Virus record (IMG/VR): IMGVR_UViG_3300042894_002964
Coordinates: 1-40,095 of that record
DNA: 40,095 nucleotides
Reading direction: 5' to 3' (one strand)
From: a virus
A program made the translations under genes and the position numbers. Shown one piece after another: positions 4,558 to 23,595 of the stretch. The notes under the pieces were generated by a model that was not told where the DNA came from, made no database searches, and saw only the letters and a program-made list of their open reading frames with translations. Every line of letters starts with the position of its first letter. Within the stretch, counting starts at the first letter, position 1.

Positions 4558-7500
4558 ATGCCAATAGCACGCTTTGAAATGCCTGATGGTAAAATTGCAA
4601 GGTTTGAAGTTCCTGATGGAACATCACCTGAGCAAGCACAATCAATGTTTAATGCACAAATTTCTGATATTCAAAAACAAACTGCACCGCAACCAAAAAC
4701 ATCAGCTAGCGAAGCATTTATTAGTGAATTAGCAAATACAAGTTCTTTGGGGTTTGGAGATAATTTTATAGCTGGATTAACCGCAGGTGGGGCAGGGGTT
4801 ATTGGTGGTGCAATGCGCCTTGGTGGTTATGAAGGCGAATTGCCAAGCATGAGTGAGGTTTATAATAAGAAAAAAAGTGAAATATTAGATTATCAAAACC
4901 AAGCATGGCAAGAACATCCTTACGCATCTATAGGCGGAGTAGTTGCTGGTGCGTTAAATCCAGCAAACCCGCTAAATGTGGCGGGGCGTGCTATTAACGC
5001 AACAAAAATAGGTGGCAAAGTTATGCAAGCTAATATACCTTTAATAAAAGGGAAAAAACTGGTTAATTTACCTATAATAGCGGGGCGTGGTGTTGTTAAT
5101 GTTGGTAAAGGTGCTGTTGGCGGTGCAACTGGTGGCTTTATTCAAGGAGTTGGAGAAGGCGAGGGCAGTGCGTCTGAAATATTAGATAATGCTATCAATC
5201 AAGCTAAAACAGGGGCTAAGTTTGGAGCGGGTGGCACTGCATTAATAAAAGGCGTTCAAACAGCAGGTAAATACACACTAGGAGGACTTGCAAAAGCTGC
5301 GCTTCCTGCCAATAAAAAAAAAGCTGTAAATTATGCAGCTGAAGAGCTGCAAAAAATCACTGGCACAAATAGAGATGATGTTTTGAATGCGTTAGCAAGA
5401 GCTGATGATACAGTTAATTTGCGTGCTTCACAAATAACAGGCGATGTTGGTATTAATTCGCTTGAGCGTGAGTTGGCAAAAAATAATCCAAAATTAATGG
5501 GGCGTGCTTCGCAACAGGATATAGACAACTTAAATATTTTGCAAAACGAATATAATAAACTAGTAGCACAAGGTGCGCCTGAAAATGCAATCCAATTTAT
5601 AGCAGACAGAGCAAACGCAATTATTGCTAAATTAGATAATGCTGCAATGCAATCTAAGAGCAAATTAGATGATGTGATTAATAATAACGTGCCATCTGCA
5701 ACAGAGGGAGAAATTAGCTCTAAAGCGTATGATGTTGGTTTAGATAAGTTGCAATCATTTAAGACTGGAACTACTCAACCTGCTTGGGATAATGTCAACA
5801 AAGAAACTCCTATTGCACCAAAAAATATAACTGAATTGCAAAAATATAATCAAAAAAACTTAGAGGCTGCTTATTCTGATTTACCAGAAACATCATTAAT
5901 TGATAAAACATTAGGCACACAAAAAGATAGTGCAATTAAAGCAAAAGAGTTAATTGCTGCTCGCTCAAGAATTGAAGGTGAAATTAGGGCGGAAAAAACA
6001 GCAACCGCACCAAATCAAAATAAAATAAGATTATTAAAACAACAAGAGCAAGCAATCTTAAAAGATTTACAAGATGGCTTTACTAATGGCGAACTGGATA
6101 ACGCATTAAACGCAACTAAAACTCAAAAGCAATTATATGAAACTGGGGCTGTTGGGCGTGGATTGCGTGGGAAACCCGAAGCATATTTAGGGCAGGTTGT
6201 AGGTAATCAAAACATCAAAGGTTCACTTAGCACAAAGCAATTACTTGAAGGGCAACCTGAAAATAAACAACAGGTGGTTGATTATGTTATAAAGCAATAT
6301 GCTAAAAATATAGACCCCGAAAAAGGAGTTAATTTATTGGCAAGCAAACGTTTTTTGCGTGATAAAGCTGATTTGTTAAATGAATTACCTGAAGCAAAAA
6401 AAATTATCAACGATATTGAAAAAGCGCAAACTCAATTTACCAACAAAGCGCAAAGGCAAAAAGCTATAACTAATGCGCTTCAAGGTAAAGTTGAACCTTT
6501 GGTTACTGGAAGGCAAAAAATATCAATCGCCTCTCAATTTATTAATGGTGATGCTGAAAAATCTATTGAGCGAATTATAAAAAGTAATGACAAGCAAGCT
6601 GGTTTTGCCATTATGAAAATGGCTTCAAAAGACGCAACAGGGCAAGCGGCCGATGGTTTGCGTTCGGCAGCCGTTTCGCAATTAATAAAAGGAGATGTAT
6701 TAAAGACGTTTGAAAATCCTAAAACCATAGCAACAATAGCGCAAATATTGCCTAAAGAACAAATATTCAAAATAAAAAAACTTGCTGAAAATAAAGAGTT
6801 AATAACACGCAACTTAAAGGCTGCGGGAATTGAATTAACTGGTGAGCAAGGTGAGTTTTTAGGAAACACTATAGCAAGGGTGGGAAGTGCTGGATTGGCG
6901 GGCAAAGCTGGAATTACTAGTTTATCTGGAAAAGCTGCGGTGACTAATTTATCAAGTAAAACATGGCAGCGTATCGTTAATAAAAACAAACAAGCATCAA
7001 ATAAAATAATTGAAGATGCTATATTTGGTGACAATGAATTGTTGAAATCGTTACTTGAAAGAAAAATCACTCCCGATGGTAGTAAAGTTATAAAAGGTTG
7101 GATTTTTGCAAATGCACCACAAGGTGAAGATAATAATCAACCCGCCTTTGACACTCCAAACAATCCTGATGGCGTTTCACCACAGCAAGAGCCATTAACG
7201 CTTAATATAACTCCGCAATCATATAATACGCAAATGCAAGCCCCTCGTGGATTGCGCAACAATAACCCTGCTAACTTAAAAGGTAATGATTTATGGCTTG
7301 GTAAAACTGGGGTTGATGAGGGCGGGTTTATTCAATTCAAAACCCCACAAGCTGGATTGCGTGCAATGGCAATAAATCTAGCTAATCAAGAAAAAAAACA
7401 TGGCATAAACACAGTTTCTGGTTTAATATCAAAATATGCGCCTAATAGTGAAAATGACACTGTTTCGTATATTGAAAAAGTAGCTAATGATTTAGGTGTT

Positions 7501-20651: not shown

Positions 20652-21551
20652 TTATATTAGTGTTTCTTGCGTCATACGCTCTATTGTCGCTGGTTGCTCG
20701 GTGAACATATCAGCTTGCCTGTAAGCGTCCTCAATTCTTTTGCAACCAATGTTGAAGTATTCCTCATTAAGTTCTATTCCTATGAACTTGCGCCCCTCTT
20801 TAACGCATGCAACTCCAGTGCTAAAACTTCCTGCAAATGGGTCTAATATTGTTTGGTTTTGCTCACTTAGTAATAATATCAAGCGTGACATTAATTTAAT
20901 TGGTTTTGCGGTTGGGTGCGTATCAATTCCCCTTGACTTATCTACATCTGGCGTGAAACACCAAACATTAGTGATGTTGCAATTATCCTGATAGTGAGGG
21001 CGGGGTTTATCGCCTTTTATATATAAATATTCTTTTGTTTTGGGTTTGCCAATAGTTAATTTAACTCCAAAGCCTCCGTTTTGTTTTTCAGATAACGCTC
21101 TTTTTAAGCCATCAATATACTCAGGCATTGCATAAAGCAATTCAGCTTTATCGCTATATGGCATTTTAGTTTCAAAATATTTTGGCTTGCCTTTTTTATT
21201 TATCATTATGCTTTCATGACTACGTAAAATTGGTTGCATAATTGCGCCCACCCTACGTTTTACCCAACTTATATGGTCGCTATATTTGAATAATTTATTA
21301 ACTTCATTTTGCCAATCAATCAAAGTTGGCATCTGCCCAAAGTAAGCAAACCAAGCATCACTAGGCAATATGTTGTAAATATTATCAAGCACTTTCGGAA
21401 TATCTAACGTTTTATCCCATTCGCTTAAGTTTATTAAGTAAGGGGGATCAGTGATTACGCAATTAATTTTACCCAAAGTCGGCATCACTTCCAAGCAATC
21501 TCCTAATATTAACACGCAATCGCCTATTGTAACTTTTTTCTTATGTGTCAT
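20652..21551 (-). CDS. DNA methyltransferase (N6-adenine/N4-cytosine type, beta class)
   Basis: A 299-residue protein. The catalytic motif D35-P-P-Y38 lies near the N-terminus, and the AdoMet-binding motif (DPFAGSFSTGVA, about residue 236) near the C-terminus, the order of beta-class methyltransferases. THPTAKP precedes the latter, as in this class. It has no nuclease partner in the window, so it is an orphan enzyme, probably protecting phage DNA from host restriction or marking it. It is the last gene of the recombination/ATP-grasp operon, joined by ATGA. The target sequence cannot be read from the protein. Confidence 0.88.
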   Translation of the reverse strand: MTHKKKVTIGDCVLILGDCLEVMPTLGKINCVITDPPYLINLSEWDKTLDIPKVLDNIYNILPSDAWFAYFGQMPTLIDWQNEVNKLFKYSDHISWVKRRVGAIMQPILRSHESIMINKKGKPKYFETKMPYSDKAELLYAMPEYIDGLKRALSEKQNGGFGVKLTIGKPKTKEYLYIKGDKPRPHYQDNCNITNVWCFTPDVDKSRGIDTHPTAKPIKLMSRLILLLSEQNQTILDPFAGSFSTGVACVKEGRKFIGIELNEEYFNIGCKRIEDAYRQADMFTEQPATIERMTQETLI

Positions 21552-22336
21552 GATTTCATAATCTCTGGCAAAATGTTAATTGGGTGGTTGCCATAAAGCC
21601 CATAATTGCGGGTTGAGTTCACTTCTACAATGCTTGGCTTATCATCTATAAAACACAAATCTAGCACATATTCGGTTAATTCTGGCAATTCGTTCGTAAA
21701 ATCTTTGCATATTTGTTCGGCTGCATCAATCAATCTATCATCACATTGGTAATATTTTACGCAATCTTTATTGTTTAATGGCTTTATTTTTGCTTCAATC
21801 ATTGAACCACTAACAACTTTTTGATTAATCACAATAAACCTTGTTTCATCTTTAATTTCAACATAATCATAAATTAATACATCATTTGATTGATATTCTA
21901 AAAAATATCCTATTCCTTCCCAAATAGCTTCTTTATCTTGAGCATCACAATCAAATCTGAAACTTTCTTTAGATTGCGCTTGGTTTTTAATAAAAACTTT
22001 ATCACTAAACTTTGATGCAGCTTTAATAACTCCAACAACTCCTTGCTCATATCCAACAATCGCATAATTACGATTTAACCATTTACGATAAGATATTGTT
22101 CTTGGTAAATCCACCTGCGAAAGATTGATGCTTTTAGCATCTGGGTATATTGCACGTTTGAAAAAATCATTTCTTTTGAAGCCATTGCCAATAAATATTG
22201 CGGGTTCATATTCGTTGATATGTTTATGCACCCGCACATCTAAACCAAGTTCATAAGCTGCTGCTATCCAATAATGACTTTCAAGCATATGCTCTAAATC
22301 ATTATCATTGCGGGGCAGGTAATAAATATTTGTCAT
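21548..22336 (-). CDS. ATP-grasp protein (R2K-clade / former DUF4343 type)
   Basis: A 262-residue protein. ATP-grasp signs: K117 in KVFIK and K123 in QSKESF (nucleotide-binding strand), YVEIKDETRF with E164/R166, D226 in YVLDLCFID, and E238-V-N240 (metal-binding), followed by GLYGNHP. The N-terminal 90 residues form an alpha/beta substrate-side domain. ATP-grasp enzymes join a carboxylate, via acyl phosphate, to an amine or thiol. The likely class modifies proteins or peptides. It is coupled by ATGA on both sides to a CDC123-like gene and a methyltransferase. The substrate is unknown. Confidence 0.75.
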   Translation of the reverse strand: MTNIYYLPRNDNDLEHMLESHYWIAAAYELGLDVRVHKHINEYEPAIFIGNGFKRNDFFKRAIYPDAKSINLSQVDLPRTISYRKWLNRNYAIVGYEQGVVGVIKAASKFSDKVFIKNQAQSKESFRFDCDAQDKEAIWEGIGYFLEYQSNDVLIYDYVEIKDETRFIVINQKVVSGSMIEAKIKPLNNKDCVKYYQCDDRLIDAAEQICKDFTNELPELTEYVLDLCFIDDKPSIVEVNSTRNYGLYGNHPINILPEIMKS

Positions 22337-23037
22337 TTACTCACCTTATCCATTACGTTATATCTAAAAGTGACCTCGCTGCCGTCCATAGCGTTTAATT
22401 CATCATAAGTGAATAAGCAAGGGTCTGATAACCCATAAGGATTAAGCTCAAGCAGTCCTTTATCATAAATATCTTCGCCATAAACAATATCCATGACAAT
22501 ATCTTGCATTGGCAAATGTGACAAATATTGGTTTGCAAACGCAATAATTTTTTCTTTATTTGGCGCAAAATTATTAAAACCAATATTGTAAAAATATTGT
22601 GATATGGCAATTAATTTACCATCTTTTACATAGCAACGCCATTCATTTTGCGGTGGAATATAAACCCATGGCAAGATATGTAATTGTAATTGTGTGCCAT
22701 TTTGCATTGCTTTGTCTAAATCATCAAATATACGCATAGAGCAACCACCTAATGCGTCTTGTATATCTTCAATACGCTTCATTGGATATATTTCACCAAG
22801 CGAATTTGAAAAATAATCTTTTGGGGAGCGAGTTGATAATTTTGCAAAAAACCAACCAGAATAAAAACCCGTTAATGCTTGTTGTATTTTATTACAAATG
22901 TCTTCAGGTAACTCAATTCCATCACCTTTAATCCATGGTTCAATTTCAAGTGGTATGCTTAAAATTGGCTTTGCAATCAGCGCATTATATAGCTCTTTTG
23001 GCATATTTTCTATTGCACATTTCATTACGTCTTTCAT
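22333..23037 (-). CDS. CDC123-like ATP-grasp protein
   Basis: A 234-residue protein, much shorter than human CDC123. Matching family elements: FAKLSTRSPKD (K66, R70, K73), EWRCYVKDGKLIAISQYF (R134; the eukaryotic form is EFRCFVK...LIGISQR), D183 in VMDIVY, and E197-L-N-P-Y-G with LFTYDEL, matching DFNPFG...LFTWEEL. These are the ATP and Mg-binding positions. Eukaryotic CDC123 helps assemble translation factor eIF2; bacterial and phage members are predicted to modify proteins. ATGA coupling to RusA and to a second ATP-grasp gene suggests the two act on one pathway. Confidence 0.85.
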   Translation of the reverse strand: MKDVMKCAIENMPKELYNALIAKPILSIPLEIEPWIKGDGIELPEDICNKIQQALTGFYSGWFFAKLSTRSPKDYFSNSLGEIYPMKRIEDIQDALGGCSMRIFDDLDKAMQNGTQLQLHILPWVYIPPQNEWRCYVKDGKLIAISQYFYNIGFNNFAPNKEKIIAFANQYLSHLPMQDIVMDIVYGEDIYDKGLLELNPYGLSDPCLFTYDELNAMDGSEVTFRYNVMDKVSK

Positions 23038-23384
23038 GTTTTTTGCTCCAATATTATATCAATCGTTCTTTTCTCACCATTACCCCAATCTATGGTTATT
23101 GGTCTAAAATATCTATCATCAACCCCTATTGCTTGCGCTATTCCATCTAATGCAGCTTTGCAAGCTGATAAGCAACCATCTAAATCACGATTGCGCTTGT
23201 CTGGTGCGTTAAATAGCAATGTTATGGCAATAGGGGCTTGAACATATCCAGTGATATGATGCGCTAATAAATACGCTTCCTGCTTATAGGCTTTGAAGTG
23301 CTTAGCTTTGCCATAATGATGCACCCTAGTAAAATTAGGGTGCAATTCTTTAGGAAACCATGAGATAGTGATTTTATTTTTCAT
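23034..23384 (-). CDS. rusA: RusA-type Holliday junction resolvase
   Basis: A 116-residue protein; ATG 23384 follows AGGAAAATA, and the longer frame to 23462 lies inside the upstream gene. The core FNAPDKRNRDLDG (D67, D69), then K76 in CKAALD, and GVDD (D89, D90), is the RusA catalytic pattern; family length is about 120. It cuts four-way junctions made during phage recombination or replication so DNA can be packaged. Coupled by ATGA to the CDC123-like gene. Confidence 0.85.
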   Translation of the reverse strand: MKNKITISWFPKELHPNFTRVHHYGKAKHFKAYKQEAYLLAHHITGYVQAPIAITLLFNAPDKRNRDLDGCLSACKAALDGIAQAIGVDDRYFRPITIDWGNGEKRTIDIILEQKT

Positions 23385-23595
23385 TATTTTCCTGTAAAAA
23401 TAACTCCGCATTACCACCACCGCAATAATCACAACTCCATGATATAGTTGGTTCAATTTCACTCATATCAATATCTGAAAATTGACAATCGCAACAAGCA
23501 TTAGGTTCTTCAAAAGCATCAAAATAACCATCATAACTACTACCTTTAATGGTAAATGTGCTACCTGCCTTTGTTGAATATACGCCATCTTTCAT
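23374..23595 (-). CDS. Small Cys-rich protein, possible zinc binder
   Basis: A 73-residue acidic protein. Cys cluster CCDC (residues 34-37) and CDYCGGG (55-58) could form one Cys4 metal site. The N-terminus is beta-rich with many Gly and Ser. It overlaps the start of rusA by 11 bases. No family is recognised. It lies within the recombination operon. Confidence 0.65.
   Translation of the reverse strand: MKDGVYSTKAGSTFTIKGSSYDGYFDAFEEPNACCDCQFSDIDMSEIEPTISWSCDYCGGGNAELFLQENNEK

Follow-up and report, generated by a model that had tools for sequence, protein, structure and literature searches.

A small tailed phage carries a gene that, by its profile matches and conserved residues, encodes a genuine member of the CDC123 (R2K.1) family of ATP-grasp proteins, and in related phages this gene is kept independently of the second ATP-grasp gene, the rusA gene, and the DNA methyltransferase gene to which it is chained. 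The CDC123-like protein most likely uses ATP to modify a host protein, or to remodel one in the manner of CDC123, and its ATP-grasp neighbor, an R2K_2 protein, is probably separate cargo rather than the other half of a two-step enzyme pair. The phage is represented by a window of 40,095 bases (the whole stretch of DNA analyzed here), an IMG/VR virus record with a GC content of 37%, which contains structural genes (terminase, portal, scaffold, and major head) together with genes of replication and recombination (DnaB helicase, SSB, and a Rad52-type annealing protein). Because the nearest relatives of its DnaB in the genome collection come from alphaproteobacterial assemblies, the best being from Rhodospirillales at 50-52% identity, the host is probably an alphaproteobacterium.

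The four genes lie on the minus strand in the order rusA, CDC123-like, R2K_2, and DNA methyltransferase, with ATGA at all three junctions, and the open reading frames, coordinates, strand, and overlaps agree with the arrangement described in the earlier note.

23034..23384, minus strand, RusA-like Holliday junction resolvase (phrog_34, E 3.7e-13)
23034..23037, minus strand, ATGA stop-start overlap between rusA and CDC123 (sequence reading)
22333..23037, minus strand, CDC123-like (R2K.1) ATP-grasp protein, 234 aa (PF07065, 62.9 bits; residues; dN/dS)
22333..22336, minus strand, ATGA stop-start overlap between CDC123 and R2K_2 (sequence reading)
21548..22336, minus strand, R2K_2-type ATP-grasp protein, 262 aa (PF18299, 28.8 bits; phrog_7313)
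21548..21551, minus strand, ATGA stop-start overlap between R2K_2 and the methyltransferase (sequence reading)
20652..21551, minus strand, beta-class N6/N4 DNA methyltransferase without an evident cognate nuclease (PF01555, E 4.1e-34)

The identities given earlier to the outer two genes also hold, RusA through its phrog_34 match and the methyltransferase through PF01555 and a DPPY motif that precedes the FxGxG-type motif and so places the enzyme in the beta class. Translation of rusA probably begins not with the GTG at 23462 but with an internal Met near 23384.

The upstream ATP-grasp protein (gene 1) had been recognized as CDC123 from its motifs, and profile searches bear this out. It matches Pfam D123 (PF07065) at E 3.7e-17, scoring 62.9 bits where the cut-off is 24, and scores lower on other R2K profiles (R2K_3, 28.6 bits; R2K_2, 21.0 bits). 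A phmmer search with gene 1 found the solved human CDC123 structure 8phd at E 4e-11, and a 14-member profile, comprising gene 1 and 13 relatives, matched CDC123 structures alone, again with 8phd as the best (E 4.3e-29). Its RAGNYA basic residues, Lys-66 and Lys-73, have the +7 spacing of Lys-104 and Arg-111 in the human protein, and the ExR, Asp, and ExN motifs are all kept as E132xR134, D183, and E197xN199. Across the 14-member alignment Lys-73, Glu-132, Arg-134, Asp-183, and Asn-199 are invariant, and the first RAGNYA position, that of Lys-66, is either Lys or Arg. Gene 1 resembles human CDC123, an eIF2 assembly chaperone, in its D123 match, its +7 basic pair, and its ExR, D, and ExN motifs. 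With a dN/dS of 0.16 between the window and its relative L002, CDC123 is under purifying selection; the same comparison gives 0.13 for SSB, 0.26 for Rad52, and 0.03 for DnaB. The fold assignment of both ATP-grasp proteins rests on sequence profiles, because the AlphaFold models are too poor for use (gene 1, two-sequence input, pLDDT 44 and pTM 0.38; gene 2, single-sequence input, pLDDT 29.7); a Foldseek search with the poor gene 1 model ranks Cdc123 structures first, at an E-value of only 0.05. PADLOC and NCBIfam gave no match for either protein.

For the downstream protein (gene 2), all of the residues named in the R2K-type assignment (Lys-117, Arg-166, Asp-226, Glu-238, and Asn-240) were found, and its predicted ATP/metal motifs are kept as E164xR166, D226, and E238xN240. 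It narrowly passes the 26.2-bit cut-off of Pfam R2K_2 (PF18299; 28.8 bits, E 1.3e-6) and matches phrog_7313 at E 5e-19. The spacing of Lys-117 and Lys-123 is +6, the same as seen by eye in the large-phage relatives L020 and L021, and when the R2K_2 and CDC123 sets are compared by hhalign, the probability is 90% over the ExR-to-ExN core. These matches identify gene 2 as an R2K_2 protein that is more divergent from its family than gene 1 is and is distantly related to gene 1; a search for a near orthologue did not find one. The phages that encode R2K.2 proteins (DUF4343; phrog_7313) are mostly large ones, Ochrobactrum OC, Agrobacterium Atu_ph07, and Xanthomonas XacN1 among them, with 37 records matching the large-phage type protein of L020, and R2K proteins in jumbo phages have been predicted to modify host proteins (PMC7824862). 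Gene 2 shares with them the R2K_2 profile match, the +6 lysines, and the ExR, D, and ExN motifs, although its genome is only 40 kb and its pairwise similarity to them is weak (best E 5e-3); it is otherwise an ordinary addition to the known phage R2K.2 proteins.

The closest relatives of the window, the IMG/VR contigs L002 and L003, carry a CDC123 protein that is 91% identical and lies in the same place, yet nucleotide homology to the window stops at the gene borders or only a few bases from them (22329-23060). The place of R2K_2 is taken in these relatives by two open reading frames of 53 and 49 codons, and the rusA slot of L002 holds an unrelated endonuclease (phrog_93). Of the methyltransferase gene, only the first 38 bp and the last ∼85 bp are common to the window and L002, and at this position L002 has a 100-aa open reading frame (6996-7298, plus strand) in which the first 13 and last ∼15 residues of the window methyltransferase flank an unrelated middle, a chimera from recombination inside the gene. 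L002 keeps CDC123 with its methyltransferase gene gutted, and the lineage of the window can dispense with the methyltransferase. The relatives also have a sliding-clamp-like gene (phrog_947; L002 4974-5663, plus strand) that is missing at that place in the window.

The earlier note had proposed that the two ATP-grasp genes form a working pair, possibly acting in successive steps, and had called for a neighborhood survey of the pair; this proposal did not survive that survey. CDC123 and a separate R2K_2 gene occur together in none of the two nearest relatives, none of seven other CDC123 contigs, and none of five plasmids, and a whole-record R2K_2 search of those contigs and plasmids gave weak matches only, all of them inside the CDC123 gene itself. 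Among the records examined, the window alone has both genes. Because the relatives and the seven contigs keep CDC123 without a separate R2K_2, we regard it as a stand-alone accessory gene, and it is independent of R2K_2, RusA, and the methyltransferase. The suggested coupling to the latter two stands as far as the overlaps in the window are concerned, but it is not conserved, with a different endonuclease in the rusA slot and a gutted methyltransferase in the relatives. The phage-type CDC123 loci have no neighbor family in common; what recurs is limited to occasional matches between two loci, for example a distant RusA and a transposase-type open reading frame.

The family is rare. Among 50,697 catalogued phage records, pairwise tblastn with three different queries found no CDC123 homologue. 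Whole-genome D123 surveys were negative in 385 and in 399 bacterial genomes, although the search used for them detected seven of seven known carriers. Distant IMG/VR members were missed by single-protein scans and were recovered by scanning with a DNA pattern of the ExNPYGxSDPCLF motif and with the alignment, which yielded the seven further contigs and brought the IMG/VR total to eight lineages with an intact CDC123 plus one remnant; as pattern scans catch only pattern-matching members, these counts are lower bounds. The remnant (L024 698-892, minus strand) is a truncated or decayed 64-aa frame that has only the C-terminal CDC123 motif and lies beside an HNH-like open reading frame. We left out L015, which shares only Rad52 with the window. 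An IMG/VR record can be incomplete, and not all of them need be phages: terminase was found in 5 of 10 records and was strong in only four, the phage status of L028, L030, and L033 is taken from IMG/VR (and for the last two also from integrase or transposase genes), and L032 may be a plasmid, having a long open reading frame that resembles a MobF-type relaxase by eye. In L030 (5501-7814, plus strand) a Mom-like gene, CDC123, a small open reading frame, and a queuine tRNA-ribosyltransferase-like gene (phrog_887) are followed by an integrase. In L031 (5500-6783, plus strand) a 427-aa open reading frame joins a YspA/cpYpsA-type SLOG domain (PF10686, E 1e-15) to CDC123 (PF07065, E 1e-14), a fusion seen in this one contig that may reflect a lost stop codon.

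The CDC123 plasmids of Methylobacter, Sagittula, a Rhodobacteraceae bacterium, and Sinorhizobium have the order HNH/WHH nuclease, SUKH, and CDC123; the last three also carry VgrG or PAAR genes. The phage protein has a homologous core with these CDC123 proteins of T6SS polymorphic toxin loci (24-29% identity); however, in contrast to the SUKH-CDC123 loci, no HNH toxin or SUKH immunity gene lies beside the window copy, near which neither a SUKH protein nor a toxin nor any T6SS part was recognized, its neighbors being RusA, R2K_2, and the methyltransferase. On an Aneurinibacillus plasmid (L008 3458-5618, plus strand) a WGR-PARP_reg-PARP gene precedes CDC123 by ∼74 bp, possibly as an ADP-ribosylation operon, and on an Arthrobacter plasmid (L019) an R2K_3 gene adjoins a SLOG gene. 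In the tree the CDC123 proteins stand apart from R2K_2 (84/90), five phage-type lineages are grouped (100/97), and the T6SS-type plasmid members, with their common HNH-SUKH-CDC123 order, form a group of their own; the tree gives no firm place to the window lineage, L032, L034, or the Aneurinibacillus protein. R2K.1 has been described in eukaryotes, NCLDVs, and bacteria (T6SS, Legionella), with phage members given for R2K.2 (PMC4431377). Unlike those R2K.1 members, gene 1 is carried by a small tailed phage whose DnaB resembles those of alphaproteobacteria, and we found no report of R2K.1, or CDC123 proper, in tailed phages in the open-access literature. With the set assembled here, the range reported for the family comes to include tailed phages.

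That both ATP-grasp enzymes act on proteins, as previously predicted, is backed by their profiles and by the published analysis of the R2K clade, which lies within a group of ligases that form peptide-like bonds and is itself predicted to act on proteins (PMC4431377). Because of this position we prefer ligation to a host protein, and because the phage-type loci have no common neighbor we favor a protein that acts by itself on a target permanently available in the host. According to PMC8844851 no enzymatic activity had been identified in Cdc123, and for CDC123 ATP binding and hydrolysis have been shown and a chaperone role described (PMC12860950); the literature surveyed gives no demonstrated ligase product for an R2K enzyme (cf. 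PMC8844851, PMC12860950). For the activity, the kind of bond, and the host target, we infer the following. The CDC123-like gene would be an accessory gene in a mosaic early/recombination module, its enzyme binding ATP-Mg and most likely activating a carboxylate as an acyl phosphate, from which an amino acid or peptide would be joined to a host protein that is thereby altered during infection or lysogeny. R2K_2 would be a cargo gene that was acquired separately and whose product, though similar in its predicted chemistry, has a target of its own, and the ATGA chain would reflect translational coupling in a polycistronic module and not a common pathway. We consider this account, of a stand-alone ligase with R2K_2 as independent cargo, about equally probable to be right or wrong.

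The main alternative to ligation is CDC123-style remodeling, in which the protein would bind a host translational GTPase (EF-Tu, SelB, or IF2, which are relatives of eIF2γ) and ATP binding or hydrolysis would change its assembly or conformation without a covalent bond. The sole family member with known biology acts in this way on eIF2γ (PMC12860950, PMC8844851), and the ATP-contacting loop is kept, human Arg-111 corresponding to Lys-73. However, the similarity to CDC123 covers the ATP-grasp core, and bacterial CDC123 genes are found in toxin-immunity loci or beside PARP, not among translation genes, and we judge remodeling to be possible but unlikely. Rather improbable is a link to NAD/ADP-ribose chemistry, with CDC123 and other R2K enzymes acting on ADP-ribosylated proteins or nucleotide-derived signals. 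The SLOG fusion in L031, the PARP gene upstream of CDC123 in Aneurinibacillus, the SLOG gene next to R2K_3 in Arthrobacter, and published R2K.2-ADP-ribosylglycohydrolase-R2K.3 operons (PMC4431377) all point toward it, but each association is a single locus, and no such gene was recognized beside the window CDC123 or in most phage loci.

Successive action of R2K_2 and CDC123 on one substrate is very unlikely and largely refuted: the genes adjoin and overlap by 4 bases, and other bacteria have R2K.2/R2K.3 operons (PMC4431377), yet the pair is missing from the closest relatives and every other CDC123 contig examined, and R2K_2 has been cleanly replaced while CDC123 was conserved. Highly improbable, too, is that the ATP-grasp enzymes decorate a modified DNA base together with the neighboring methyltransferase. 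A DNA-modification gene does lie near CDC123 in three of the eight lineages (the window methyltransferase and, directly upstream of CDC123, a C5 methyltransferase in L028 and the Mom-like protein in L030), but these enzymes are of three unrelated kinds, none was recognized adjacent to CDC123 in the other five lineages, and L002 keeps CDC123 despite its gutted methyltransferase gene; DNA-modification genes are moreover common in phages.

Eukaryotic CDC123 is essential, and the phage homologues could help to explain its need for an ATP-grasp active site. A broader idea, to which we give only a slim chance, is that CDC123 was at root a weapon of phages or mobile elements against bacterial translation GTPases, or against ADP-ribosylated host proteins, from which eukaryotes recruited an eIF2 assembly factor; if true, the phage copies would still act on bacterial relatives of eIF2γ. 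The eight mobile-element lineages, the SLOG fusion, and the PARP neighbor lead to concrete hypotheses on R2K.1, and the compact phage homologues, which stand alone with the active site kept, offer a simple system for learning its function.
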